Shown in pieces: positions 13,101 through 47,387 of a stretch of DNA of 48,670 bases (the first letter of the stretch is position 1; each line of letters opens with the position of its first letter). The position numbers and the translations under genes were made by a program. Source of the DNA: a virus; IMG/VR virus record IMGVR_UViG_3300030104_001760, positions 1 through 48,670 of that record; one strand, written 5' to 3'. Below the pieces are notes generated by a model. The model did not search any database, was not told the origin of the DNA, and worked only from the letters and a program-made list of their open reading frames with translations.

Positions 13101-13792
13101 GCAGACCCATTGATCCTCTTAATAGAATAGTAGGAGTGGCTACAGGAACAGACCTGATGGTAGACAGAAGACTACCTAAAAGTGGTTTTGCTAGATTTGG
13201 TATGCAATCAGGTAGATATGTAGATAATATTTTTGAAGCTCTTTCAGGGGAGGTGTACGGAGAAAGTTTACAAAAAGCTAGTAGACCAGAACAAGAACTC
13301 CGTGATCCTTCCGCTATATCGGGAATGGCAGGCTTTAAAGAGTTACCGCCCAAGACGTATGGGGAAATGGTTTTTGCTATGGTAGATCTACCAAATTGGA
13401 AAACGAATATGTATACGGGTGTGCCAGAGCATGATAGGTTTGTCGATAGAGTTATTACTCCTGCCATAGAAGAAAAAGCACAACTTCTTTTAAAGAACAA
13501 AAGGTTTGTAAATTCTAAAAACTTAGATTGGAAACGTGATCAAGTAGACAAGATGCTTAAATCCGCTAAAGCATCAGTAACCGACTTTTTCTTTAAAGGT
13601 GATCCATCAGGAGAAGGAGGTTTAGCCTACCGAAAAAAGAAACTTGATCGTACTCCTCGCAAATATATGAAAACTGCTAGGCGTATGACGGGGATACAAA
13701 CATCTATCCGTGAGTTAAATGAAGCTGAAATAAAACGGCTTGAAAACACCATAACGATGATACGTCAAGAGCCTAGCATAATCGAGGATTAA
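10190..13792 (+). CDS. Very large internal virion protein
   Basis: The start is ATG 10190, overlapping the upstream stop (TAATG) and giving MAMSAQEALKMWGS. An ATG 18 bases earlier lies inside the previous gene and is less likely. About 1200 residues, mostly helical, with several glycine/alanine-rich weakly hydrophobic stretches, for example around residues 155-175 (FGVAKGLGFGAQ) and 780-830 (LLPFGRFMNNVV and GGALNGTAAVM). These could insert in membranes. Size, location and composition fit the largest core or ejection protein of podoviruses, which helps carry DNA across the cell envelope. No lysozyme motif is seen in it; that motif lies in the 7207-8331 gene. Its last codon overlaps the stop of the convergent methyltransferase gene. 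Confidence 0.65.
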   Translation: MAMSAQEALKMWGSNSPESSDESVSIADGVDIGNKGGRTRDYLKIDDIVNDPEKVEKVRRYMVTTKGKQYAERPAEDMVDEWVEHMRYFNTNEVSTIKEAMRVSKMSDKQKDATADAYNLYDELGYFWQNDGIAGTVDGLWDYMKAVATSPSTYVGFGVAKGLGFGAQKMGVAAVRRKAMRDAVRNKTQGASTKEIVRDMAKRNAKKDAWSVALTTGAIDGGIAAYQDKTQQGAELEAGSREEYNPWQTLVSSAMQGGLSTLVTRLAPEASLKAGISGQARQMRSVRHKRLTMQEGVDRDKAFEKAGEQLAKNYKDFREGALKGAEMRKLQPDEWRSRFPDDVRRRDLPEGTPEIPTMKERNAAVKAEESGRPIRAYETPLPKEVIKEMLDTVRKIDFDELGINFAPNINDSEKFAILVQNLNPKKLEEFRDMIWGETGLWLGDIADRIQLGRNIGNQLRFSASEVGTTLQMFNDSSSRRVVDEALAEGEQVAGRHAQALLESRLENKSSFMWMKEVDTNPGQRLSYLQNIWKRLLVSTPQTTAINVIGWGQLQIGHTLAELVQAAQLAALGGGQFVVGSKGYAQSLQQAKALGSLQFEKLRRLVDPYSTREMYMEALNANPALKEKLYNTTMGGVIANADRFEFEKAGKVFRGTEAYVKMSQDISMVRLQDQLTKSQAFINALDKHLRLDKGMNLSEALQKGDLRALDEDIMSKAGADTLESVFSKDYRAKAKIGDKKAGQYFLGPIGKAIAEGAEAPGNIGQHMATAIEAISNNSMLGYLLPFGRFMNNVVATSYKWTIGGALNGTAAVMKGEKISATEGFARATVGITAIGVFTDIDKEKEKRGLAWNEIQFNDGSIIDGTNMFPMSLLMVTGRISNRISNGQTVSPELFEDFGKQIAIGQAAKDLQFGNDIAKLGQAMNLTAYADKGEGGSVAGSAFDNWKRQGDWAKSLGQGLADSGIGNVVAGFSRPIDPLNRIVGVATGTDLMVDRRLPKSGFARFGMQSGRYVDNIFEALSGEVYGESLQKASRPEQELRDPSAISGMAGFKELPPKTYGEMVFAMVDLPNWKTNMYTGVPEHDRFVDRVITPAIEEKAQLLLKNKRFVNSKNLDWKRDQVDKMLKSAKASVTDFFFKGDPSGEGGLAYRKKKLDRTPRKYMKTARRMTGIQTSIRELNEAEIKRLENTITMIRQEPSIIED

Positions 13793-14319
13793 CGTCCGTA
13801 GAACTGTGTCACTTCTTTATTAGTCGCATCAAATAGATACCAACAACAGTTGTCCTTACCCGTCATCTTGCTATCTGGTATCCACTTCAATCTCCCAACA
13901 CTAACGATCTTCACGAGCCAATCCATATAGGGTTGGCTTTGCTTTGTGTGAGGCCAATCAGCATCGAACAATAGCCAAGTCGGGCATTGTAAAGCAAAGT
14001 GATCTATCATTGGATGCAGTATCTTTCTGTTCCAAGGAGGGTTTGTTATCACAAAGGATTGCCTACCCGTAGGAGGGATGGACACCCGAAACATATCTTT
14101 CTTTTGTATCCAGGATTGTTTAGGCACAATATCGCTGTGCGTCATGCCAACACCTTTGGTGTGTTTCGTTATCCACTTAACTAACGCACCGTCACCTGCA
14201 CAAGGTTCAGTGTAGTAAAACTTTTGTTTCGGTAAATGCGAAACTAAAGGTAAGAACCCTTCTTCAGGTGTAGGGTAGAAGTCACGCTCAATGCGATCAA
14301 AGTTACTTCTCTTGCCCAT
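13789..14319 (-). CDS. DNA adenine methyltransferase-like protein (NPPW)
   Basis: 176 residues. ERDFYPTPEE near residue 11 precedes motif I, EPCAGDGAL (residues 38-46), which binds S-adenosylmethionine, and motif IV NPPW (93-96), typical of N6-adenine methyltransferases. The order is gamma/beta-like, but the protein is short and I see no clear target recognition domain. It could methylate DNA or be a degenerate SAM enzyme. It is the last gene of the leftward module, and its stop codon shares bases with that of the rightward virion gene. Target sequence unknown. Confidence 0.7.
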   Translation of the reverse strand: MGKRSNFDRIERDFYPTPEEGFLPLVSHLPKQKFYYTEPCAGDGALVKWITKHTKGVGMTHSDIVPKQSWIQKKDMFRVSIPPTGRQSFVITNPPWNRKILHPMIDHFALQCPTWLLFDADWPHTKQSQPYMDWLVKIVSVGRLKWIPDSKMTGKDNCCWYLFDATNKEVTQFYGR

Positions 14320-28778: not shown

Positions 28779-28969
28779 GCCCAAACTCCATCGTTAGTTC
28801 TCCACTCCAAGCCTTCATTCTCTAAACCATGCTCAATGCAGTTCCAACAAGTTTCATACTCATAATCCCAATTTGTATCAGCTAATTCGCAGATAGCATC
28901 AGCAGTCTTTTGAGCATAGTTGTTTAAACTAGGCTCGTGGTCTAACGGTAATTCATTCTTGAATATCAT
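28775..28969 (-). CDS. 64-residue acidic hypothetical protein
   Basis: Started at ATG 28969 (MIFKNELPLDHEPSLNNYAQ), 16 bases inside the end of the methyltransferase gene; 29005 would reach further into it. Acidic and Trp/Cys-containing (ETCWNCIEHGLENEGLEW). Function unknown. Small acidic early proteins of phages sometimes mimic DNA, but nothing specific shows that here. Confidence 0.55.
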   Translation of the reverse strand: MIFKNELPLDHEPSLNNYAQKTADAICELADTNWDYEYETCWNCIEHGLENEGLEWRTNDGVWA

Positions 28970-30158
28970 TTGGTATACCTCCCAAGATGTGGGCAATAAC
29001 ATCAACAGTGAAGCCGTTGCCTATCATCTTATATCGTTGTGTGTTTGAAATTTTCTTGCGTGACCAAAATGAGGGTGGAAGCTTTGGATCTTCAAAGATG
29101 CCATACTCAGTATAATCATCATGTAGCGTTTGGAGTCTTTCGCACTCACGAACTGTAAGCTTTCTCCATTTTAACTCATCAAGATTGACTGCTACGTTAT
29201 CCTTCTGAACTGTAGTGAGGGTGTTAGTCTTGGCATCAACCCTCATTTCAAGTTGTTGCGTTGTCATGCCTGCTACACTGTGCTTGTGATCCTGACGCAC
29301 CCCATCAACCTTGTATCTACCTCTAAACGCTCCACAGATTATCTTTGGCTCTCTGTGTCCACCTTGCATAGTTGTGAGGGTGGGTGCTTTACCTTCAGTA
29401 GAATACACTCTCCTGATAGCATCAAACCCATTGATGTCAGCTTCACCAACTTGAATACACTTCTTATCAAAGACAAGTTGTCTTCTGTGTTTCCCAAAGT
29501 AGCTACGCAGATTACCACCTTTGAAATAATTGGCATCAATGCAATGCGCCTTTTCCCTATCGACAGCACCATCTTCGATAATGTCCTCTAGTATGATGCC
29601 TTTGTCATCCCAGGAATTTACGGGAATGTTAGTCCAATACAATCTTTGCCTATTCTGTGCAGAGAAATCAGCAGAGTTGATAGCTATTGGCTCAACACCT
29701 AGCAGATCGGTGATAACGTCCATATGCTCTTTCTTCATCTTGACGTTTTCTAGTAAGAAATACTTTGGCTTGAGTTCTTTCAGCAATCTAACATACTCAA
29801 AGAATAAACCAGATCGCTCACCCTCTAACCCTTTGCCTTTGCCTGCAAATGATAAATCCTGACAAGGTGATCCACCGACTAGCAAAAATACTTTAGATTT
29901 ACGGTAGCCTTTCCTACTCCTAATACTATTAACATTCCCACCATTAATAGGCTCTAACAAATAACCATCTTCAGTCTTGATGTTTTTGATGTCACCTAAA
30001 TGCGTTGCAGTAGGGTTGTTGAACCTAGCTACTGCTGAAGCATACTTGTCTATCTCTGAAATGCACCATCTGGTGTAAGGTAGCTTGGCTTTACGCCAAG
30101 CTTCCCCAACCATATTGCAACCGTCAAAGACAGAGAGATTTACGGTTGTCTCTTCCAT
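28953..30158 (-). CDS. C5-cytosine DNA methyltransferase
   Basis: 401 residues. Motif I region LSVFDGCNMVGEA (8-20). Motif IV GGSPCQDLSFAG contains catalytic C99. Motif VI ENV (137-139), motif VIII QNRQR (168-172). Motif IX region RKLTVRECERLQTLHDDY and motif X MIGNGFTVDVIAHIL near the end. All are in standard order with a target recognition stretch between about residues 190 and 330. It methylates cytosine in an unknown DNA target, probably to protect the phage or mark its genome. No cognate restriction enzyme gene is adjacent, so it is an orphan enzyme. Confidence 0.92.
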   Translation of the reverse strand: MEETTVNLSVFDGCNMVGEAWRKAKLPYTRWCISEIDKYASAVARFNNPTATHLGDIKNIKTEDGYLLEPINGGNVNSIRSRKGYRKSKVFLLVGGSPCQDLSFAGKGKGLEGERSGLFFEYVRLLKELKPKYFLLENVKMKKEHMDVITDLLGVEPIAINSADFSAQNRQRLYWTNIPVNSWDDKGIILEDIIEDGAVDREKAHCIDANYFKGGNLRSYFGKHRRQLVFDKKCIQVGEADINGFDAIRRVYSTEGKAPTLTTMQGGHREPKIICGAFRGRYKVDGVRQDHKHSVAGMTTQQLEMRVDAKTNTLTTVQKDNVAVNLDELKWRKLTVRECERLQTLHDDYTEYGIFEDPKLPPSFWSRKKISNTQRYKMIGNGFTVDVIAHILGGIPNDIQE

Positions 30159-30553
30159 TATGCCAAACCTCCTTCCAATGGCACAACTGTGAACCCATGA
30201 TAACCCATGTTGATCTCTTGCAATCCCAAAAAGGTAATCTTCTTTTTAAGATCAGCTAGAGTAATATCAGGAGAAGAAGTTTCGCCAAGTTCTGAACCTA
30301 ATACCAAACCATTACCCATCAAGACTCCATTATAGCCTTCAAACTTAAAACCATAATTGGTGTCGATAAGTAAACCCTCATCATCAACAAAGATAGCATC
30401 TCCATCATAATCAGCATAATCAATAAGCACTCTAGTGAATAAAGATACTGCTTTATGGGTTGTGGATAAGTTTTTACAGATGTCGTTATAATCTGAATAG
30501 TCTACTTCAGTTATTGTCTGATCTATTACGTTTATTTTTAAAGCTTTCATCAT
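30158..30553 (-). CDS. DUF3846-like protein
   Basis: 131 residues with TTGGAGG upstream of a double ATG at 30553. The segment DYADYDGDAIFVDDEGLLID, then FKFEGYNGVLMGNGLVLGSE, resembles the DUF3846 pattern (V.D.EG......N......GN.VV.G) of small phage proteins with unknown role. Its stop overlaps the methyltransferase start. Moderate family confidence. Confidence 0.5.
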   Translation of the reverse strand: MMKALKINVIDQTITEVDYSDYNDICKNLSTTHKAVSLFTRVLIDYADYDGDAIFVDDEGLLIDTNYGFKFEGYNGVLMGNGLVLGSELGETSSPDITLADLKKKITFLGLQEINMGYHGFTVVPLEGGLA

Positions 30554-30594
30554 TCGTTTACCTCCAAGTTTTAAAATGATTCTTCCTCAGTTAT

Positions 30595-30630
30595 GAGTCT
30601 TACGCTCTTTTTTTAGGAAGCGCAAGACTC
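30595..30630 (-). other. Stem-loop with GANTC arms between early genes
   Basis: Arms 30595-30606 and 30619-30630 are complementary at 11 of 12 positions around a 12-base loop. Each arm contains GAGTC/GACTC. No T-run follows in the leftward transcript, so it does not look like a terminator. It may be an RNA processing or regulatory hairpin, or a protein operator. Another GATTC lies at 30578-30582. Confidence 0.5.
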
Positions 30631-30639
30631 AAAGTTAAA

Positions 30640-31041
30640 TTAAATTAATGAACTATCAACCATCCTTAAATCATTGTTTCTTGATACGATGCGTTTGATG
30701 GTGTCGCTACTTGTCACAAATTCTTTGCCATCTATCACATCTTTAATAATGATATTATTCTTTGTAGCTTTTCGCTTGTAGCCAATGGCATTAAATGTGC
30801 GTCCTCTAATAGTTATATTCGACAAGCTTTCCATGTCTAGAGAATGAGTCTCTGCCCAAGTTCTTAAATCTTTTTGGGTTAGCGTTTCCTTTCCCTCTGT
30901 TGCTACTATTCTCATAGTGATCAATCCATCTTGAGAATTGATTGTAACGGGTGTTTGAATTTCAAATGTATAACCTGATACTGTCATCATCTTCTCGTTT
31001 AAATCTTTGATCATCTGATCTACTTTATCTTTATCTCTCAT
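30640..31041 (-). CDS. Hypothetical early protein
   Basis: 133 residues with a strong GAGGAGG before ATG 31041. It begins with a helix (MRDKDKVDQMIKDLNEKMMT), then beta-rich segments (TFEIQTPVTINSQDGLITMR). The C-terminal half has RKATKNNIIIKDVIDGKEFV and a basic patch. No family recognised. It is a separate transcriptional or processing unit, flanked by stem-loops on both sides. Confidence 0.65.
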   Translation of the reverse strand: MRDKDKVDQMIKDLNEKMMTVSGYTFEIQTPVTINSQDGLITMRIVATEGKETLTQKDLRTWAETHSLDMESLSNITIRGRTFNAIGYKRKATKNNIIIKDVIDGKEFVTSSDTIKRIVSRNNDLRMVDSSLI

Positions 31042-31132
31042 TTTTTCCTCCTCAAGGAATCTAGGTTAAATCTTCTGCTCTCCCAGGAATCCAGGAATTG
31101 CAGCCTTAGTAGAGAAAACGCTAAAATCTGCA

Positions 31133-31211
31133 TCTGCTCTTATGATAACACCAATTAAGGGAAACAATCGGGGAGAGAAAAAACCTCAACTGATGTTATC
31201 GTAAGAGCAGA
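31133..31211. repeat. 20-base inverted repeat in early leader
   Basis: Arms 31133-31152 and 31192-31211 match as reverse complements at 18 of 20 positions, separated by 39 bases. The region lies in the 205-base gap upstream of the 31041 gene and could form a long hairpin in the leader RNA or be a paired protein-binding site. The rest of the gap shows no coding potential. Confidence 0.6.
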
Positions 31212-31229
31212 CTCTTATAATGTGAGTCT
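31209..31229 (-). other. Small stem-loop AGACTC/GAGTCT
   Basis: A perfect six-base stem (31209-31214 with 31224-31229) around a nine-base loop, both arms being GANTC sites. It shares three bases with the larger inverted repeat next to it. It lies just downstream of the 31247-31507 gene. Confidence 0.4.
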
Positions 31230-31246
31230 ACTCTCTGCCCGTTAGT

Positions 31247-31507
31247 CTAACCTCCTATCGTTATTTTTTGGGCTTGTCGTAAATCTAAAATTACTGCTCT
31301 TTGATCTGCTAGCATTTGATTAGCTTGTGCTAGTTCTCTTTGAAGCTTTGCATAATCTCTAATAAAATGCACTAAATCCATGTTGCCTATCTCTGTGGCT
31401 ACACCCCTTGAATTGGTGTGGATTTGCCTAGTAATTTTTGTCACATCAATCGTGACGGGATTACTGTGAGCATTGTTTTGAAATTTTAAAATGCTGTTTA
31501 TTTTCAT
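31247..31507 (-). CDS. Hypothetical early protein with coiled coil
   Basis: 86 residues with AGAGAGGA upstream of ATG 31507. The N-terminal part is beta-like (MKINSILKFQNNAHSNPVTI). The second half is a helix (FIRDYAKLQRELAQANQMLA, then DQRAVILDLRQAQ) suited to dimerisation. A small DNA-binding or regulatory protein is conceivable, without direct evidence. Confidence 0.6.
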   Translation of the reverse strand: MKINSILKFQNNAHSNPVTIDVTKITRQIHTNSRGVATEIGNMDLVHFIRDYAKLQRELAQANQMLADQRAVILDLRQAQKITIGG

Positions 31508-31529
31508 AGCGTGATTCCTCTCTCTGTTG

Positions 31530-31865
31530 TTATGCTACGTTTTCTGTTGGTGTGATCTCTAATAGATCAACGAAATTAGATTCAATGGTATTGTAGAATG
31601 TCATTTCATAAAATGTTGCATCACCTAGAACATTTAAGAACTTACCATTTAAATCTAAAATTGGTCTGTCTGTCGTGCCGTTTATCTTTTGCCTTCCAGA
31701 CTCTGTAAATACTATTGATACTTTGCCTTGGGATACGATCTTGTTAAATCTCATGTTAACCTTGATTCCCATTTGATCTAGAATATTGCCTTCTGCCCAA
31801 CATCTTTTAAAACCTTTGTTGTAGCAGACTCTTCTAGTAAATTTTCCTAAAATTCTTTTTTTCAT
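31530..31865 (-). CDS. Hypothetical basic early protein
   Basis: 111 residues. The basic N-terminus MKKRILGKFTRRVCYNKGFK suggests nucleic-acid contact; the rest is beta-rich (KVSIVFTESGRQKINGTTDR). ATG 31865 has GGAGAA upstream. Located second in the leftward early series. No family recognised. Confidence 0.6.
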   Translation of the reverse strand: MKKRILGKFTRRVCYNKGFKRCWAEGNILDQMGIKVNMRFNKIVSQGKVSIVFTESGRQKINGTTDRPILDLNGKFLNVLGDATFYEMTFYNTIESNFVDLLEITPTENVA

Positions 31866-31898
31866 AATAACGATTCTCCATTTTGTTTATAATTTTAT

Positions 31899-31932
31899 TT
31901 TAGGCATTTTGAAAAGATTCGCAATGCCTAAA
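31899..31932 (-). other. Perfect 10-bp stem-loop between early genes
   Basis: TTTAGGCATT at 31899-31908 and its exact reverse complement at 31923-31932 enclose a 14-base loop that contains GATTC. It lies between the stop at 31937 and the next start at 31865. The leftward transcript has no U-tract after it, so a processing or regulatory role is more likely than termination. Confidence 0.55.
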
Positions 31933-31936
31933 TTTA

Positions 31937-32710
31937 TTAATGAGTTATAAATAATATTCTTTTTGCGGGACAATCCCAACACAAAGCGCAAGTAGTACAC
32001 GCTTCAGTTTTTCCCGTTTGTTCTGGGCATATAATATCTTTCCCTTTTTCTGGCGTGTTGTGGTCAAGACTATTTGCACTGAATGAATCGGAAGGCATCC
32101 CAGAAAAACGTATTTGAAAAAGCTTACGATCTTGAAAGACTCTTCTAACATCTCTTATCGCTTTTCCTATACTTGCATATTCTGGATTCGGGTCGTTTGG
32201 CAAATTTCCCGTATATCCAAAGATTGCCAACATCCCATTATATTTATGTAATAACCTTTTCCAGAATAGAACATACGACACACTGAAAAAATCGCCTAGG
32301 ATATGGAGTCTCAACATGACTCGCTTTTTCTTTTTGATTATCAATTCATCTAGATCAATTTCTATTCGCTCTTCTAAAAGCTTTTGATCTTTATGATCTA
32401 TTCTATGAGCGAATGGCATATTGTTTCCAAAACAGTCTAGATAGTGAACGCATGATTTTGGGCATGTTTCCCTTTCAGTTAAAGTAAGAGTAAACATTTT
32501 ATAACCTTTAAAAGTACCCTTTGTGATCACGCTTGAAGCTTTGGAAAGCTTAACATTTTTAACGGGTTTAATAACGTTAGGCGTTTTATTAAACATCGTT
32601 AGATAGTCTTTTAATGGTACTTTGGTTTTAGCGTTTTTGTAAATTGTTGTGTGATTATCCGAGTCATATCCATAACCCGTAAATTCTTTATGTGTGTTAT
32701 CAAATGGCAT
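31937..32710 (-). CDS. Cysteine-rich conserved phage protein (Gp88-like pattern)
   Basis: 257 residues; the first leftward gene after the control region, so probably immediate-early. Two cysteine groups: ETCPKSCVHYLDCFGNN (~residues 81-97) and a C-terminal cluster with CPEQTG then CTTCALCWDCPAKR. Between them is RLHILGDFFSVSYVLFW and AIFGYTGNLP. The arrangement resembles phage Gp88-like proteins, which have a similar TCP..C...C opening, and suggests a metal or iron-sulphur site. Function is unknown. AGGGAAACA precedes the ATG. Confidence 0.6.
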   Translation of the reverse strand: MPFDNTHKEFTGYGYDSDNHTTIYKNAKTKVPLKDYLTMFNKTPNVIKPVKNVKLSKASSVITKGTFKGYKMFTLTLTERETCPKSCVHYLDCFGNNMPFAHRIDHKDQKLLEERIEIDLDELIIKKKKRVMLRLHILGDFFSVSYVLFWKRLLHKYNGMLAIFGYTGNLPNDPNPEYASIGKAIRDVRRVFQDRKLFQIRFSGMPSDSFSANSLDHNTPEKGKDIICPEQTGKTEACTTCALCWDCPAKRILFITH

Positions 32711-32786
32711 TTATATTGTTTCCCTAATTGTTTAAAAACCGAATCAATTAAAAGTTAAAAGATTCATAATTCATCATAGCAATTTA

Positions 32787-32871
32787 ACCCTAGGAGTCGA
32801 GTCTGGAGTCATACATCTAGGGTGTAGTTTTCAACACAATTTGAATCCTAGGGTGTACGTTAGGACTCCAG
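32787..32871. repeat. Interleaved inverted repeats
   Basis: ACCCTAGGA (32787-32795) is the exact reverse complement of TCCTAGGGT (32846-32854). CTGGAGTC (32803-32810) is the reverse complement of GACTCCAG (32864-32871). The order A-B-A'-B' cannot form one simple hairpin: it is either a pair of protein operators or a pseudoknot in RNA. CTAGGGTGTA is also repeated directly at 32817 and 32848. Confidence 0.6.
32808..32834 (-). promoter_or_regulatory. Possible leftward early promoter
   Basis: On the minus strand TTGAAA (32829-32834) is followed after 15 bases by TATGAC (32808-32813). The spacer is short, so this is weak. The -10 and expected start overlap GAGTC sites at 32794-32810. It would drive the 32710 gene and the early module. 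Confidence 0.3.
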
Positions 32872-32990
32872 ATTCTTAACTGTTATCCTATCAGTTATAA
32901 AATCTAATAGACTCAACAGATTGCTAAAACTATTTGAGCGAATACTTAAAGAGAATCCCCGAGTCCTTTCAAAATCTAGGATCGGTCTCG

Positions 32991-33020
32991 TTTTGTTCAC
33001 CTTTTGTTCTCGTTTTGTTC
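32991..33020. repeat. Three phased TTTTGTTC repeats
   Basis: TTTTGTTC occurs at 32991, 33002 and 33013, an exact 11-base period, so all three lie on one face of the helix. The first and third are extended to TCTCGTTTTGTTC. Candidate operator or iteron array. Confidence 0.6.
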
Positions 33021-33181
33021 GACCCGTGCGAGATCCATCGGGGGGTATAGGGGTCTTTACTATGTAACTCTACACGGAAGGGGTGTTTTAGGTGTTAACC
33101 ACTTTGTTTTTGTATACAGGGAGGGGCTACTTGTATCTGCGTAAATAGGAATAACAACATGTAGTGTGTCAAATTATTAGC

Positions 33182-33209
33182 TTGACTCCTTTGCGAATCA
33201 GCCTATAAC
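33182..33209 (+). promoter_or_regulatory. Sigma70-like rightward promoter
   Basis: TTGACT (33182-33187), a 16-base spacer and TATAAC (33204-33209): five of six matches in each box. The -35 overlaps GACTC (33184-33188) and the spacer contains GAATC (33195-33199). It would transcribe the 33464 gene with a ~250-base leader. Confidence 0.6.
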
Positions 33210-33352
33210 TAGTGTAACACTCCTTAGTTAAAACGTTATGTAAAACATTTTTTTAAAGTCTTAACACAAACGTCTTAACTAACTAAAAAAAGTTACAGCA
33301 AAGTGCATTTTTCTCTTGCAAAGGCTTTTTTGTTATGGCATGATTCGTTTTA

Positions 33353-33440
33353 CCTCCTCCAGTGTAGCTTTAACGAGCTACAACTTCCCGGGCGCAGGAG
33401 GCGAGTAGTGAACACATAAGTAGCTGCCACTCTTGCGCCC
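33353..33440 (+). other. Candidate structured leader RNA
   Basis: Within 110 bases of the first rightward gene. GTAGCT (33364-33369) can pair with AGCTAC (33376-33381), and an identical GTAGCT at 33420-33425 can compete for it. GGGCGCA (33390-33396) pairs with TGCGCCC (33434-33440). CCTCC (33356-33360) can pair with GGAGG (33397-33401). Some pairings exclude each other or form a pseudoknot. I do not recognise a known riboswitch or tRNA. Confidence 0.45.
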
Positions 33441-33463
33441 TCCCCTTCCAGGAAAGATATAGT

Positions 33464-34105
33464 GTGCAAACAGAACACGTACAACATGATGAAATAACTT
33501 TAGAGCATTTAATGTCTATCTCCACAGGTAGCATTAAAACGTTTGATAATTGGTTAAGTGAAGAAGACCATCACAAAGTTTTGCAATATACTGACCACGA
33601 TGGGCAACAAAAAACTTTGTATGGCTTATCATTTGATAAATACGGTGAGAGTGAATTTGATGAAAACACACCTAACTCAGGATTGGCTCACATTATTTCT
33701 CCGAATCACCCTATATACACTACGATAGCAAGTAAGGTTAAAAAGCACACAGACTCTACTATATATGATATGTCTATAAATTGTATTCCGATGGGGGAAC
33801 TTCCTTTTTGGCATCCAGATATACCTGTTCAAGCTTTACCACCTAGCGAAAAAGCCTTTACGTTTTTGTATTACCCTCATAAAGAGTGGGATGTTAATGA
33901 GGGAGGTGAAACACATTTTGTAATTGACAAAGTATGTTATGCTTTACCACCTCTACCAAATAGAATGGTTATGTTTGACTCTCGTATAGTACATAGAGCC
34001 ACTCCATTTAGAAACAGAACTAGGTTTAGTGTAGCAATAAAAGTTGCTACAAATAACGACTACAGAATAACCCCAGAAAAAAGCTATGTTCCTAAAAACA
34101 AATAA
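33464..34105 (+). CDS. 2OG-Fe(II) oxygenase
   Basis: 213 residues starting at GTG 33464 with AGGAAAG nine bases before; ATG 33512 is an internal alternative. The iron ligands are H117 and D119 (PFWHPDIP) and H177 (FDSRIVHRATPF), with R187 (RTRFSVAIK) as the 2-oxoglutarate-binding arginine. EGGETHF (146-152) is the conserved strand between them. This is the prolyl-4-hydroxylase-like fold. First gene of the rightward module and first of four such enzymes in it. Substrate unknown. Confidence 0.8.
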   Translation: MQTEHVQHDEITLEHLMSISTGSIKTFDNWLSEEDHHKVLQYTDHDGQQKTLYGLSFDKYGESEFDENTPNSGLAHIISPNHPIYTTIASKVKKHTDSTIYDMSINCIPMGELPFWHPDIPVQALPPSEKAFTFLYYPHKEWDVNEGGETHFVIDKVCYALPPLPNRMVMFDSRIVHRATPFRNRTRFSVAIKVATNNDYRITPEKSYVPKNK

Positions 34106-41942: not shown

Positions 41943-44072
41943 ATGGCAACAGAAGAAGAACTAAATTTTGACACAGACAAAGTATCAGTAGTAGAAGACG
42001 GAGATAAATCTTTAAGATCTCCTTCAGGTATTGCTGCTTTTATAGAAGGAAAATATAAAAGAGCAGAAGATGCTAGAAAAAACGATGAAACACGATGGTT
42101 GAGAGCATATAAAAATTATAGAGGTTTGTATGGGGCTGACGTTCAGTTTACGGAGGCAGAAAAATCCAGAGTGTTTATTAAGGTTACTAAAACCAAAACA
42201 CTTGCAGCGTATGGTCAAATAATAGATGTGTTGTTTGGTAATTCATCGTTTCCTTTAACAATTAACCCTACTCGTCTTCCTGATGGAGTAGCTGATTCCG
42301 TACACCTTAATATAGACCCTAATGCCCAACAAAACTTTGAAGGGATACAAGGCGCATTTGAAGACTCTCCTTCTGACCCATATCTCTTTAGCCCAAACAA
42401 ACCGTTAGACAAAGGGGCTACTATATATGATCTACAAAAAAGGCTAGGGCCTCTTGAAGATAAGTTAGAACCTATATCAGATAAACTTATTGAAGGGCAG
42501 GGAACTATACAGCCAACTGTTACCTTTCATCCTGCGTTAGTTGCAGCCAAAAAGATGGAAAAAAAGATACACGACCAATTAGAAGAGTCAGGCGCTAATA
42601 AACAATTAAGGTCTACCTCTTTTGAAATGGCGTTGTTTGGCACAGGTATTATGAAAGGTCCGTTTGCTATGGACAAAGAATACCCTAACTGGAGTGAAGA
42701 AGGTGAGTATGACCCTCTTATTAAAACTGTTCCTTGCACTAACCACGTATCTATATGGGATTTCTACCCTGACCCAGACGCACAAAATATGGATGAAGCG
42801 GAGTATGTAGTAGAACGGCATAAAATGTCTCGTACTCAATTAAGAAATTTAAAAATGCGTCCTTACTTTAGGAAAGAGTCTATTGAAACAGCTATTGAAT
42901 TAGGCGAATCTTACACAAGAAAGTATTGGGAAGATGATATGACGGACTTTTCAATAGAAGAAGCCGTTAAGCGTTATGAAATTTTAGAATTTTGGGGGTA
43001 CGTAGATACTGACGTTTTACAAGAAAATGGGTTAGACATTCCTAAAGATTTAAAAAAGATGGAGCAACTTAATGTCAATATATGGTTATGCAATGGAGAA
43101 ATACTACGGCTTGTACTCAATCCGTTTAAGCCAGTTCGTATACCTTACTACGCCGTACCATATGAGCTTAATCCCTACAGCTTCTTTGGCGTGGGAATTG
43201 CTGAGAATATGGATGATACACAAACTCTTATGAACGGCTTTATGCGTATGGCTATTGACAACGCAGCCTTGAGCGGCAACCTAATTATTGAGGTAGATGA
43301 AACTAACCTAGTTCCAGGACAAGACCTATCAGTATACCCAGGAAAAGTATTTCGTAGACAAGGTGGCGCTCCAGGACAGGCTATCTTTGGCACAAAATTT
43401 CCAAACGTAGCAGGGGAGAATATGCAACTATTTGATAAAGCTAGAGTGCTTGCAGATGAAAGTACAGGTTTTCCCAGTTTTGCTCATGGACAAACAGGCG
43501 TGCAAGGGGTAGGCAGAACAGCATCAGGAATATCTATGCTTATGTCAGCCGCTAATGGTTCTATTAGAAATGTTGTAAAGAACGTAGACGATTATTTGTT
43601 AGCACCTTTAGGAAAAGCTTTTTATAGTTTTAATATGCAATTTGATTTTGATCCTGACATACAAGGAGACTTAGAGGTTAAAGCTCAAGGTACAGAAAGT
43701 TTGATGGCTAATGAAGTGCGTAGTCAAAGATTAATGCAATTTTTACAAGTGGCTTCTAATCCTGTGCTTGCACCTTTCGCAAAAATGGATTATATTATAA
43801 GGGAGATTGCAAAAGCTATGGATCTTGATGCAGACAAAGTTACTAACAGTATGTCTGATGCTATGATACAAGCAGAAATACTAAAAGGTTTTCAGCAACC
43901 TCCACCTCCTCCTCAAGGACCACCACCAGAAGGAGGGCAACCTCCAATGGCATCTCAACCTGCACCTGCAGGAGCAAATGTAGAAGATACAACTGGTGGC
44001 GGCGGTGCAAACATAGGTATGGGAACAGCACCGCTTCCTGAAGAAGAAGGATTTACAGGAAATGTCCAGTAG
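41943..44072 (+). CDS. Portal protein
   Basis: 709 residues directly after terminase. The body has the familiar helical and beta parts of podovirus portals (GIAAFIEGKYKRAEDARKND, YKNYRGLYGADVQF; NPYSFFGVGIAENMDDTQTL). The last ~60 residues are disordered, Pro/Gly/Gln-rich (QQPPPPPQGPPPEGGQPP). It forms the dodecameric ring through which DNA enters. Position between terL and the scaffold is diagnostic. Confidence 0.88.
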   Translation: MATEEELNFDTDKVSVVEDGDKSLRSPSGIAAFIEGKYKRAEDARKNDETRWLRAYKNYRGLYGADVQFTEAEKSRVFIKVTKTKTLAAYGQIIDVLFGNSSFPLTINPTRLPDGVADSVHLNIDPNAQQNFEGIQGAFEDSPSDPYLFSPNKPLDKGATIYDLQKRLGPLEDKLEPISDKLIEGQGTIQPTVTFHPALVAAKKMEKKIHDQLEESGANKQLRSTSFEMALFGTGIMKGPFAMDKEYPNWSEEGEYDPLIKTVPCTNHVSIWDFYPDPDAQNMDEAEYVVERHKMSRTQLRNLKMRPYFRKESIETAIELGESYTRKYWEDDMTDFSIEEAVKRYEILEFWGYVDTDVLQENGLDIPKDLKKMEQLNVNIWLCNGEILRLVLNPFKPVRIPYYAVPYELNPYSFFGVGIAENMDDTQTLMNGFMRMAIDNAALSGNLIIEVDETNLVPGQDLSVYPGKVFRRQGGAPGQAIFGTKFPNVAGENMQLFDKARVLADESTGFPSFAHGQTGVQGVGRTASGISMLMSAANGSIRNVVKNVDDYLLAPLGKAFYSFNMQFDFDPDIQGDLEVKAQGTESLMANEVRSQRLMQFLQVASNPVLAPFAKMDYIIREIAKAMDLDADKVTNSMSDAMIQAEILKGFQQPPPPPQGPPPEGGQPPMASQPAPAGANVEDTTGGGGANIGMGTAPLPEEEGFTGNVQ

Positions 44073-44280
44073 CTTAAAACCTCTCGTCAACGATAAAAAA
44101 TTGTATGACGCTTTTAAAGATTATATAGAAAATCAGATACGTATAACACAAAGATCACTAGAACAAGCACATACGCTTGTAGATGTTCATAGACTTCAAG
44201 GCACAATACACGCTTACAGAAGATTGTTAAAACTGAGAGAAGATGTAAATGGCCCAGAACAGACTAGAACAAGTAGGTAA
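44062..44280 (+). CDS. Small helical protein after portal
   Basis: 72 residues; ATG 44062 overlaps the portal stop by 11 bases. LVNDKKLYDAFKDYIENQIR, then LEQAHTLVDVHRLQGTIHAY and RRLLKLRED, a two-helix pattern repeated in short genes that follow portals in many phages. Probably a head or packaging accessory; function unknown. Confidence 0.6.
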   Translation: MSSSLKPLVNDKKLYDAFKDYIENQIRITQRSLEQAHTLVDVHRLQGTIHAYRRLLKLREDVNGPEQTRTSR

Positions 44281-44377
44281 GTGGATAGGCAAGTGGTTGT
44301 TTAGAGCATATATTTTGTGGAGTATCAGTGCAGACGTTATACTACTTTGTGGTATTGCTTATTTAATATTCATGTAA
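44249..44377 (+). CDS. 42-residue membrane micro-protein
   Basis: Short frame from ATG 44249 (GAGAGAAG upstream) to TAA 44377. It begins MAQNRLEQVGKWIGKWLFRA; ILWSISADVILLCGIAYLIF is one transmembrane segment. It overlaps the preceding gene by 32 bases and fills the space before the next. Function unknown. Confidence 0.5.
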   Translation: MAQNRLEQVGKWIGKWLFRAYILWSISADVILLCGIAYLIFM

Positions 44378-44391
44378 AGGATTAAATTAAT

Positions 44392-44640
44392 ATGCCAAAA
44401 TCAGCAGCGTGGCAAAGAAAAGAAGGAAAAAACCCTAAAGGCGGTTTAAATGCTAAAGGTAGAGCCTCTGCAAAAAAACAGGGCATGAACCTTAAAGCCC
44501 CCAGTAAAAAAGTTGGCAACAAAAGACGAGCATCTTTTTGTGCTAGAATGGGTGGCATGAAGAAAAAACTAACATCTGCTAAAACGGCACGAGATCCTAA
44601 TAGCAGAATTAATAAGTCACTAAGAGCATGGAATTGTTAA
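44392..44640 (+). CDS. DUF6321 basic small protein (copy 2)
   Basis: 82 residues. GLNAKGRASAKKQGMNLKAP, then RRASFCARMGGMKKKLTSAK and DPNSRINKSLRAWNC, a clear match to DUF6321 and related to the 38163 gene. Extremely basic. The stop TAA overlaps the following ATG. The role is not known; location among head genes suggests packaging or virion association. Confidence 0.78.
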   Translation: MPKSAAWQRKEGKNPKGGLNAKGRASAKKQGMNLKAPSKKVGNKRRASFCARMGGMKKKLTSAKTARDPNSRINKSLRAWNC

Positions 44641-47387
44641 TGGATGTAGATCAACAAACAAAGTCGGCTTTTAAAAAATATGGTAAAACCGCAGTAGATG
44701 TTGGGTCAGATTTTATTCCAGGAGTTAGTGAGACTAAAGATGTTATAGGTATAACTAAAGGTCTTAAAGAAGGTGATTACGCTACTGCAGGGATACACGC
44801 AGCAGGACTAGCTTTAGGTGCTGTTCCTATTGTGGGTGACATTGCAAGGCGAGGTTTACTAACTGTAACTAAGGCGATGAGAAAAAAAGATGTAAGTGAC
44901 GCTGAAAAACTTATTGATGATCCTGACGCATTAAAAGCTTGGCAAGACGAACATGGTGGAAAAGGACAAAGACAAGTAAATCCTGAAGACTCTGAAGCTG
45001 CGGCAGAAGCTTTATATCAAGGAGAAATAACGTCTAAAGAAGCACGTAATCGTATTAAAGATGCTATACCTGAACCACAAGAGTACACTGCTGACCAAGT
45101 AAGAAAAATGATGCCTACCGTTACTGATGTAACAGGATCAATGGGTAAAAAAGCAAAAGATTATGGTATAATTGGTGTAAAAGGTTTTGATCTAAAAGAA
45201 GGACAATTATTAGGCGCACGTTTAGATATACCTGCGTACAACAACTATGATAAGTGGGTTGTATCTATACACGATGGTACTATAGATAACGGCAGTGTTC
45301 TAGGATATGGTCAAGCAATACGGTTAAAAAATGTTAGGTTTGGTTCTAAGGCAAGCAAAGCGCTAGATATTGCTAGGCGAAAAATTATAAAAGAAGCAGA
45401 TCCAGTAAAAGGTACAAAAGAAAAACGCTTGGGTAAACTTACAATAGCTCGTGCTTTTGGTGAATACGTGCCAGAAGATCCATATAAGTTACAGGAACTG
45501 GCTGCATCTATTATTGAGTCTGGTTCAAAAGAATGGACACAGGTTGGTATGAACCCTTACAGAGGTAGCCAATTTTATGTCAAAAAAACAGGAAACATAA
45601 TATTTGATGCTGATGAGATGATACAAGTTGGACCTCTTGTTCTCGCAAAAAATGCTAAAACTGCTACTTTTTCTGACTTAAAAGAAATGGCTGTAAGAAC
45701 AAAAGATGGAAAACTAAGGATATTTAACAAAGGAGGTAGTGTACCCATGAATGTAGATCAACAAACAGAAATGGCTTTTATGCAAGAGGGAGGCCTTAGA
45801 GATGATGGCGCTAATGTAGATGCTGTTAGTGGAAATGAAGTTCCAACAGGTAGTATGGATCAAGAAGTTAGAGATGATATTCCTGCAAGGTTGAGCGAGG
45901 GTGAATATGTTGTACCTGCTGATGTTGTACGTTATCACGGTGTTAAACTTTTTGAAGATTTACGTAAACAAGCTAAGATGGGTATGTCTCAAATGGAGGC
46001 TGATGGGCGTATAGGTGGAGAACCTATGGAAGCCGAAGAAGAACCACTTCCTTTTGATACATCTGAATTAGTCACTACAGATTCTATGGCAGAAGGTGGG
46101 CTTATGGGTTTTGCAAACGGAGCAGATGTTCAACCGCCTACTTTTACTCATACTCCTAATACTCCTTACGACCAATCTAATCCTTTTGGGCAAGCTTCTG
46201 CTGCAGGTTTTGAATTAAAGCCTTATAGTAATCAAGCAGATGGTAGAACAATAATGCTTGCGTTTTATAATGGAAAACCTATGCAAGTAATTCCTGAAGG
46301 TTTTGTGCCTGCTGCGGAAGTTGCAGAAACAACCACACCAGAAGATAGTGGCACTGCACCTGATACTGCTTCTAAAGACTCATCACCGAGCGTTGGTCCT
46401 TACATCGAAACAAAAGATAGAGGCACTATGAAGCCTTTTAAGGATTACACAGGACAAGATTTCTTAGATGCTGCTGACCAACTAGACAGCCCATTAAATA
46501 AAATTCTTAGTATGTCACCTTTGTTAGGTTCTCTTGCTAGAATGAACCACGAAAGAGGTGTAGAAGCAGCTAAAGAAATAGTAGCTGAACGCGGTGATGA
46601 ACTGTCTGACTTTGAACGAATAGCTATGAGTAAATATGCAACTTCTGCCCCACAAGAAAAAGAAAGTTTTTTTGGATCAATAATAAACTTTTTAACAGGT
46701 AAAGAAGATACTTCCCCTGATTCTATGTTTAACTTTGGTTTGTATGATGATGAAAGTAAGTTTAATTACACTGCTAAAGATGGAACAGTACACGAAAATG
46801 TCACGGTTGCAGATTTATTAAAAATTTACAAACCTGAAACGCCTAAAGAGACAAGTCAGGCTAGGGGTAATAATGAACTTGAGAAAGACATTCAAAGACG
46901 GCAGTTTGAAACTACTGGACACGCGCTAACTAATTACGGAAATGTTAAATTTATGGGTGATCCTTCTGGTGTTAGAGACATGGATATATTTAGAATTGAT
47001 GACGGATCTGGTAAAATTGAAATGGTTAGGCGTTATGAAATGGAAAAAGCATTAGGCAAGAAAAATCTTACCTCTAAAGACATTATGAATTATAATCCTG
47101 CTGAATATGAAAGGGTAGACGCAAAAGATTCTGTAGTTGATAAAGTATTAAAAGTTGATAGAACAGAATTAAAGAAAAAAGAACCAGACGCTGTTGCTGT
47201 TGATCCAGCAGCAGCAGAAGCTAGAAGACTAGAAAAGCAACAAAAAAAGCAACAAAAAAAGCAAGATGAATTTGTTGCAAAAATAAAGAAAGACCCATTT
47301 GCAGATCGTAGCAAAGACTACGGAGGAGGTAAAAGAGGTGGGGGTAGAGCTACTGGAGGACTAGTTAAAAAGAAAAAGAGGAGATAA
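44640..47387 (+). CDS. Large virion-associated fusion protein with internal start
   Basis: 915 residues from ATG 44640 (TAATGG overlap); an in-frame ATG at 44628 lies in the preceding gene. Two parts: residues ~1-360, with ARLDIPAYNNYDKWVVSIHD, SQFYVKKTGNIIFDADEMIQ and VGPLVLAKNAKT, a domain I know as a free-standing or polyvalent phage protein; and a second part starting MNVDQQTEMAFMQEGGL, with ARLSEGEYVVPADVVRYHG, known as a separate gene in related phages. The second start (ATG 45747) keeps its own AAAGGAGG, and both parts begin with M(D/N)VDQQT, so two products are likely. The C-terminus is lysine-rich and disordered. Probably a head or internal structural protein. Confidence 0.7.
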   Translation: MDVDQQTKSAFKKYGKTAVDVGSDFIPGVSETKDVIGITKGLKEGDYATAGIHAAGLALGAVPIVGDIARRGLLTVTKAMRKKDVSDAEKLIDDPDALKAWQDEHGGKGQRQVNPEDSEAAAEALYQGEITSKEARNRIKDAIPEPQEYTADQVRKMMPTVTDVTGSMGKKAKDYGIIGVKGFDLKEGQLLGARLDIPAYNNYDKWVVSIHDGTIDNGSVLGYGQAIRLKNVRFGSKASKALDIARRKIIKEADPVKGTKEKRLGKLTIARAFGEYVPEDPYKLQELAASIIESGSKEWTQVGMNPYRGSQFYVKKTGNIIFDADEMIQVGPLVLAKNAKTATFSDLKEMAVRTKDGKLRIFNKGGSVPMNVDQQTEMAFMQEGGLRDDGANVDAVSGNEVPTGSMDQEVRDDIPARLSEGEYVVPADVVRYHGVKLFEDLRKQAKMGMSQMEADGRIGGEPMEAEEEPLPFDTSELVTTDSMAEGGLMGFANGADVQPPTFTHTPNTPYDQSNPFGQASAAGFELKPYSNQADGRTIMLAFYNGKPMQVIPEGFVPAAEVAETTTPEDSGTAPDTASKDSSPSVGPYIETKDRGTMKPFKDYTGQDFLDAADQLDSPLNKILSMSPLLGSLARMNHERGVEAAKEIVAERGDELSDFERIAMSKYATSAPQEKESFFGSIINFLTGKEDTSPDSMFNFGLYDDESKFNYTAKDGTVHENVTVADLLKIYKPETPKETSQARGNNELEKDIQRRQFETTGHALTNYGNVKFMGDPSGVRDMDIFRIDDGSGKIEMVRRYEMEKALGKKNLTSKDIMNYNPAEYERVDAKDSVVDKVLKVDRTELKKKEPDAVAVDPAAAEARRLEKQQKKQQKKQDEFVAKIKKDPFADRSKDYGGGKRGGGRATGGLVKKKKRR
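45729..45749 (+). promoter_or_regulatory. Internal ribosome binding site and ATG
   Basis: AAAGGAGG (45729-45736) ten bases before in-frame ATG 45747, giving an internal 546-residue product MNVDQQTEMAF to 47387. This is a stronger ribosome site than the one serving the full-length start at 44640. Confidence 0.6.

Follow-up and report, generated by a model that had tools for sequence, protein, structure and literature searches.

Why should the divergent control region of a virus hold eleven copies of GANTC, the unit of CcrM/GcrA control in Alphaproteobacteria, within 225 bp? The stretch of DNA analysed here, a 49-kb virus record from IMG/VR, is referred to as the window, and the cluster lies at 32741-32965, with sites at positions 32741, 32761, 32794, 32799, 32806, 32843, 32864, 32871, 32910, 32953 and 32961. 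Base composition predicts 0.70 GANTC in a stretch of this length and a first-order Markov model predicts 1.16, and eleven sites per 225 bp were reached in none of 20,000 Markov simulations; the densest 225-bp cluster in any of 300 simulated whole windows contained at most seven. Among all patterns of the form XYNZW, GANTC is the most enriched in this stretch.

The GANTC-rich block of the window

The 225-bp cluster is the summit of a larger block of about 3.3 kb, which contains 36 of the 109 GANTC sites of the window (binomial P 5e-16). The features of the block and its surroundings are as follows.

30158..33463, no strand: whole GANTC-rich block, comprising the control region and the first five leftward genes, 36 sites
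32741..32965, no strand: GANTC peak, 11 sites in 225 bp (site count and simulation)
32787..32875, no strand: nested inverted repeats within the peak, ACCCTAGGAGTC/GAATCCTAGGGT and GAGTCTGGAGTCATA/TAGGACTCCAGATTC, with GANTC in each
33184..33346, no strand: three more control-region GANTC sites, at 33184, 33195 and 33342 (site count)
31937..32710, minus strand: first leftward gene, GP88-like (Pfam GP88 slightly below the cut-off), 6 GANTC
31530-31865, minus strand: small leftward gene
31247-31507, minus strand: small leftward gene
30640-31041, minus strand: small leftward gene
30158-30553, minus strand: small leftward gene; the gaps that separate these four genes are GANTC-rich
28953..30158, minus strand: C5-cytosine methyltransferase gene, just outside the block, with no tie to GANTC enrichment
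40.4-41.9 kb: terminase large-subunit gene, without a GANTC cluster

Within the block, the control region (32711-33463) carries 14 sites in 753 bp, and 10 more fall in the 384 bp that separate the first five leftward genes from one another; the remaining 1884 bases of non-coding window DNA hold a single site. The coding sequences of the first leftward genes also exceed expectation, with 12 sites against the 6.4 predicted by codon usage (P 0.003), while the other genes of the window fall below their synonymous expectation. Outside the block the observed/expected ratio is 0.46, an ordinary level among the palindromes of these phages. A preliminary description of this DNA had reported eleven sites at 32741-32965 against less than one expected, and had proposed counting coding and non-coding parts separately; the count is exact, the expectation is 0.7-1.2, and the early region exceeds expectation in both parts. 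Its figure of about two sites in the gene at 33464 should read three.

Several other elements lie in or near the block. Three tandem 11-bp repeats of the TTTTGTTC type adjoin the peak at 32980-33021 in the control region, and a long inverted repeat, TGCTCTTACGATAACA...TGTTATCATAAGAGCA, lies between two early genes at 31100-31230 and is a candidate structured leader or terminator. Searches against Rfam found no RNA family in the window. A tie of the cluster to the GP88-like gene was considered and rejected, as 24 GP88 loci of other phages have 0-3 GANTC within the 600 bp upstream.

Opposite states of the early region in related phages

The window DNA polymerase is 63-65% identical, and its terminase 75-79% identical, to those of the Roseobacter phages CRP-603, CRP-2 and CRP-207, and on these identities the window belongs to an HMO-2011-type phage. 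The cultured relatives among the matches listed infect Rhodobacteraceae, Puniceispirillum and Pelagibacter. An assignment of the host from terminase hits in MAGs was abandoned as inconsistent: the phage-like contigs L175-L178 (genome_contigs) are binned in both a Flavobacteriales MAG and a Neomarinimicrobiota MAG, which belong to two phyla, and host calls from MAGs cannot be relied on in this case. Another contig matches the window at 99.9% identity and does not count as independent evidence.

Relative contigs were gathered by terminase and by the gene flanking the control region, and enrichment was scored over the 4 kb to the left of this anchor. The ratio of GANTC to expectation is bimodal, with 11 loci at 2.5-4.2-fold, 29 loci at 0-0.5-fold and none between. 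In nine related contigs from three lineages, the block amounts to 28-44 GANTC per 4 kb; in all nine, the richest 3.5-kb segment is the early block (27-38 GANTC, about 10 expected), and elsewhere these contigs and genomes have only 0.34-0.49 of expectation. On the anchor tree, the enriched loci form two groups (the window with lineage B, and lineage C) nested among depleted loci, and the early-region DNA of lineages A (that of the window), B and C is barely alignable, the alignments between A and B mostly covering 70-220 bp. The contrasts between enriched and depleted phages go back to about three independent origins, with a small number of near-complete enriched genomes.

In most other HMO-2011-type phages, GANTC is scarce in the same early region. 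There, GANTC and its seven-base extensions are among the most depleted palindromes (29 versus 179), while in the rest of the genome GANTC does not stand out from other palindromes; genome-wide avoidance of GANTC was accordingly rejected as the key. Since the motif is enriched in some phages and depleted in others, the early region of related phages is under opposite selection. The conservation of the cluster, which had been named as a check, is borne out in part: GANTC-rich early regions are found again in related phages and in a cultured, unrelated roseophage (see below), but not throughout the group, most HMO-2011-type phages being strongly depleted there. A comparable cluster is absent from 14 complete relatives, of which CRP-207 has a smaller one. 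The CRP-207 cluster was rejected as an instance of the same phenomenon, being an array of one heptamer, CGAATCA, in a single orientation and in a phage that lacks the methyltransferase described below. It lies in the control region of CRP-207 (MZ892987, 54224-54411) and has six direct copies, five of them at 10-14 bp steps, in an iteron-like arrangement; CGAATCA also occurs three times in the control region of the window (32740, 33194, 33341).

Selection acts on the 5-bp site itself. Of 992 palindromic classes, GANTC is the only one with Bonferroni-significant enrichment in the early 4 kb, and this holds in each of the nine enriched contigs. The flanks of 287 GANTC sites carry at most 0.08 bit per position; GANTC itself is the selected unit, concentrated in the early/control region, and to this extent the preliminary reading is supported. 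Coding GANTC exceeds synonymous permutations in all nine enriched contigs (206 against 109 in total), and the non-coding count in the same contigs is 114 versus 29. GANTC is also the best conserved of all motif classes tested, with 76% of its sites retained in aligned pairs. The site thus selected recurs without alignable sequence. In the blocks of HMO-2011-type phages the centre base is biased, GASTC being enriched about 5.5-fold and GAWTC about 1.9-fold; this counts against a reading in terms of methylation, since plain GANTC methylation predicts no such bias, and the cultured roseophage has none. A search for promoter architecture linked to the GANTC sites found none.

Other palindromes behave distinctively in this group. 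Outside the early region of HMO-2011-type genomes, many 6-bp palindromes are absent (for example ACCGGT, ACGCGT and CGATCG: 0 of 81 expected), and CTGCAG and TGCNGCA are about 4-6-fold over-represented. In other species of the group, where GANTC is scarce or absent, the same early region is enriched in other palindromes: AAGNCTT in L238, GGCC, CCGG and GATC in L256, TCCGGA in L248, and AGTTNAACT in L276/L290. These regions are possibly analogous fields for other enzymes. In yet another species (L241, L244), the early region contains repeated intergenic TGACGGA-N4-TCCGTCA hairpins, several of them directly ahead of the ribosome sites of early genes.

A phage-encoded methyltransferase and the case of CRP-6

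A comparison of gene content between enriched and non-enriched phages brought up one small gene, which in the window lies at the distal end of the leftward block of replication-side genes.

13789..14319, minus strand: predicted N6-adenine DNA methyltransferase, small (176 aa) and of the CcrM-mimic type known from phages, with EPCAGDG and NPPW motifs

All 4 enriched near-complete genomes or contigs (at least 40 kb) have the gene, and all 23 non-enriched ones lack it (Fisher 5.7e-5). The six enriched contigs without it are fragments, and the genomes behind them presumably encode it as well. Its location differs between lineages A/B and lineage C; it lies near the ribonucleotide reductase gene in the window and to the right of the control region in lineage C. 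The motifs of the window protein are EPCAGDG and ITNPPW, and across 37 sequences EPCAG-G and ITNPPW are invariant. One copy (G003) matches PHROG 799, DNA methyltransferase, and a confident AlphaFold model built with the 37 sequences (pLDDT 88.7) finds its best PDB matches in M.TaqI and M.BseCI (E 2e-5 to 7e-5), which gives the protein the fold of an N6-adenine DNA methyltransferase.

The protein has homologues in 39 phage records, almost all of them from phages of Alphaproteobacteria. The window protein is 47.8% identical over 97% to a protein of phage DSS3P8, AMO44073, which is one of the CcrM-like phage methyltransferases, some putative and some confirmed, in a published alignment; several enzymes of that set shield DNA from HinfI (PMC5537653). 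A direct comparison with PhiLM21_p027, which has been tested by experiment, gives a BLASTP E of 0.41 and an hhalign probability of 11% over residues 1-97, a similarity too weak to count and a point against the putative specificity of the window enzyme for GANTC. Among other enzymes, no CcrM-type N6_N4_Mtase (PF01555) was found in 27 phages, and the phage C5 methyltransferase was rejected as the GANTC enzyme because its occurrence is patchy and not linked to enrichment. The methyltransferase alone is insufficient for a GANTC field, since some phages with the enzyme family lack one (HMSP1-Susan, Caulobacter RW, RHph_I3_18, RHph_Y2_4, Mel-JY03); a cluster comparable to that of the window was found in none of six complete phages with a homologue, nor in phiLM21. 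Two further methyltransferase-bearing IMG/VR contigs have moderate clusters, with 9 GANTC in 225 bp (L418) and 26 in 3.5 kb (L404).

The same coincidence of enzyme and field is found in Roseobacter phage CRP-6, which was cultured on Rhodobacteraceae strain FZCC0042 and whose terminase is unrelated to that of the window. Its gp24 is a homologue of the methyltransferase (52%), and 38 of its 69 GANTC sites lie in the 2.5 kb at 42433-44882, which comprise gp66-gp69, all leftward, and a divergent control region where the record ends; elsewhere in CRP-6, GANTC stands at 0.19 of expectation. Once more GANTC is the sole significant palindrome of the 992 classes, here with even centre bases, and its coding sites number 21 against 10.7 by synonymous permutation. 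The CRP-6 protein gp68 is homologous to an early HMO-2011 protein. For a contrast between CRP-6 relatives with and without the enzyme, none closer than 47% in terminase was found.

Possible functions of the GANTC field

On balance, it is somewhat probable that the sites form the target field of a GANTC methylation switch, run by the phage itself, on the early/control region. The peak would be the densest part of a field for adenine methylation that covers the early control region and the first leftward genes. Incoming phage DNA would have one methylation state in this field, setting the strength of early-region use; with the build-up of the phage methyltransferase, and of host CcrM activity if present, the many sites would change state together, and this joint change would switch the early region and separate parental copies from newly made or fully marked ones. 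We infer this methylation state, as well as the regulatory effect, its direction and its nature. The switch would probably interact with host CcrM/GcrA. The preliminary proposal that the phage acts through host methylation is incomplete: an m6A methyltransferase of the CcrM-mimic type is encoded by each of the enriched relatives that are near-complete.

It is unlikely that the host alone accounts for the field, with host CcrM methylating it, host GcrA or RNA polymerase reading it, the host cell cycle timing early transcription, and the phage enzyme being incidental or protective. The known hosts of relatives are indeed alphaproteobacteria, GcrA binds methylated GANTC at promoters (PMC7987155), and the sites crowd upstream of genes, most of all at -15 to -1. 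However, the YGAKTCK preference is absent, with no pyrimidine preference at -1 and flat flanks over the 287 sites; GANTC is selected equally within coding sequence; and enrichment tracks the phage enzyme, whereas depletion is seen in the cultured HMO-2011-type phages that infect Rhodobacteraceae. A DNA-binding regulator of the phage, such as a repressor or coating protein that recognises GANTC in the manner of a stoperator system and from which related phages escape by avoiding the site in early DNA, would account both for the enrichment in some phages and for the strongest depletion in the same region of others, and fits the enrichment of other short motifs in the early region of other species. 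Such a regulator is nevertheless distinctly unlikely, since a 5-bp palindrome without flank preference is a poor repressor site, stoperators are long and asymmetric, and the gene-content comparison yielded no early gene present in all enriched and in zero depleted genomes.

We regard it as very unlikely that the field is a replication-origin or packaging mark whose methylation state controls origin firing or terminase cutting, as in the GATC clusters of oriC and P1 pac. The density of 11 sites per 225 bp is close to that of oriC, the minimum of the cumulative GC skew falls at the control region, and phage CcrM-mimic genes lie in replication modules (PMC5537653); yet the field is one-sided, extending 3 kb into the leftward genes and not rightward, the terminase genes are 6-8 kb away and have no cluster, and GC skew also tracks gene direction. 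An origin of the sites as a by-product of repeats, base composition, ribosome-binding sites or RNA hairpins is scarcely tenable and has been largely refuted already: some GANTC do lie within inverted repeats, GGAG-TC overlaps ribosome sites in lineage B, and the centres of adjacent GANTC are slightly complementary (P 0.018), but exactly GANTC is kept, free of flanks, across unalignable sequences and in an unrelated phage, and just one of 992 palindromes is enriched.

Methylation-site clusters of the Dam-GATC type are known from E. coli oriC and from P1 pac, the latter with the phage-encoded P1 Dam. P1 is the nearest parallel, as it has a dense cluster of methylation sites, to which the 11 GANTC in under 250 bp correspond, and itself encodes the matching enzyme; here, in contrast, the site is GANTC, and the field is spread over the early gene block, away from the terminase genes. 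The field shares with CcrM/GcrA control the GANTC unit and sites upstream of genes, but differs in having tens of GANTC per 3-4 kb, coding sequence included, in lacking the YGAKTCK extension, and in being apparently phage-run. Like the stoperators of mycobacteriophages (PMC9283540, PMC6550527), it consists of many short scattered sites that differ between relatives, whereas its information ends at a 5-bp palindromic core and stoperators are asymmetric repressor sites. In pelagiphages GANTC is depleted over the whole genome (PMC9516812), so that in both cases GANTC density is a selected trait of marine Alphaproteobacteria phages; here, by contrast, one region is enriched or depleted.

Phage m6A methyltransferases that mimic CcrM have been known for years, namely PhiLM21_p027, the Paracoccus prophage proteins JCM7686_1231/2255/2934 and AMO44073 of DSS3P8 (PMC5537653). 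In PMC5537653 and PMC7139368 no phage target region is named for these enzymes and their role is left open; the literature searched yielded no genomic field on which they would act. The window enzyme resembles them in being small and single-domain, with a SAM motif and NPPW, in belonging to Alphaproteobacteria phages and in having its gene in or near the replication block; unlike in the published cases, a dense target field lies on the early/control region, and phiLM21 itself has no field. As a broader and more tentative proposal, which we hold to be plausible without yet calling it probable, phages of Alphaproteobacteria may pair a self-encoded CcrM mimic with a self-built early field of tens of GANTC, a pairing gained independently two to three times, and relatives without the enzyme may purge GANTC there because methylation or its readers are harmful.

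The cluster suggests where the phage copy of a bacterial cell-cycle methylation system acts. With CRP-6, a cultured phage and its host are available, which makes this idea testable. Related phages that enrich or lose a single motif in one and the same region also provide an exceptionally clean natural experiment on the effect of adenine methylation on early phage genes.
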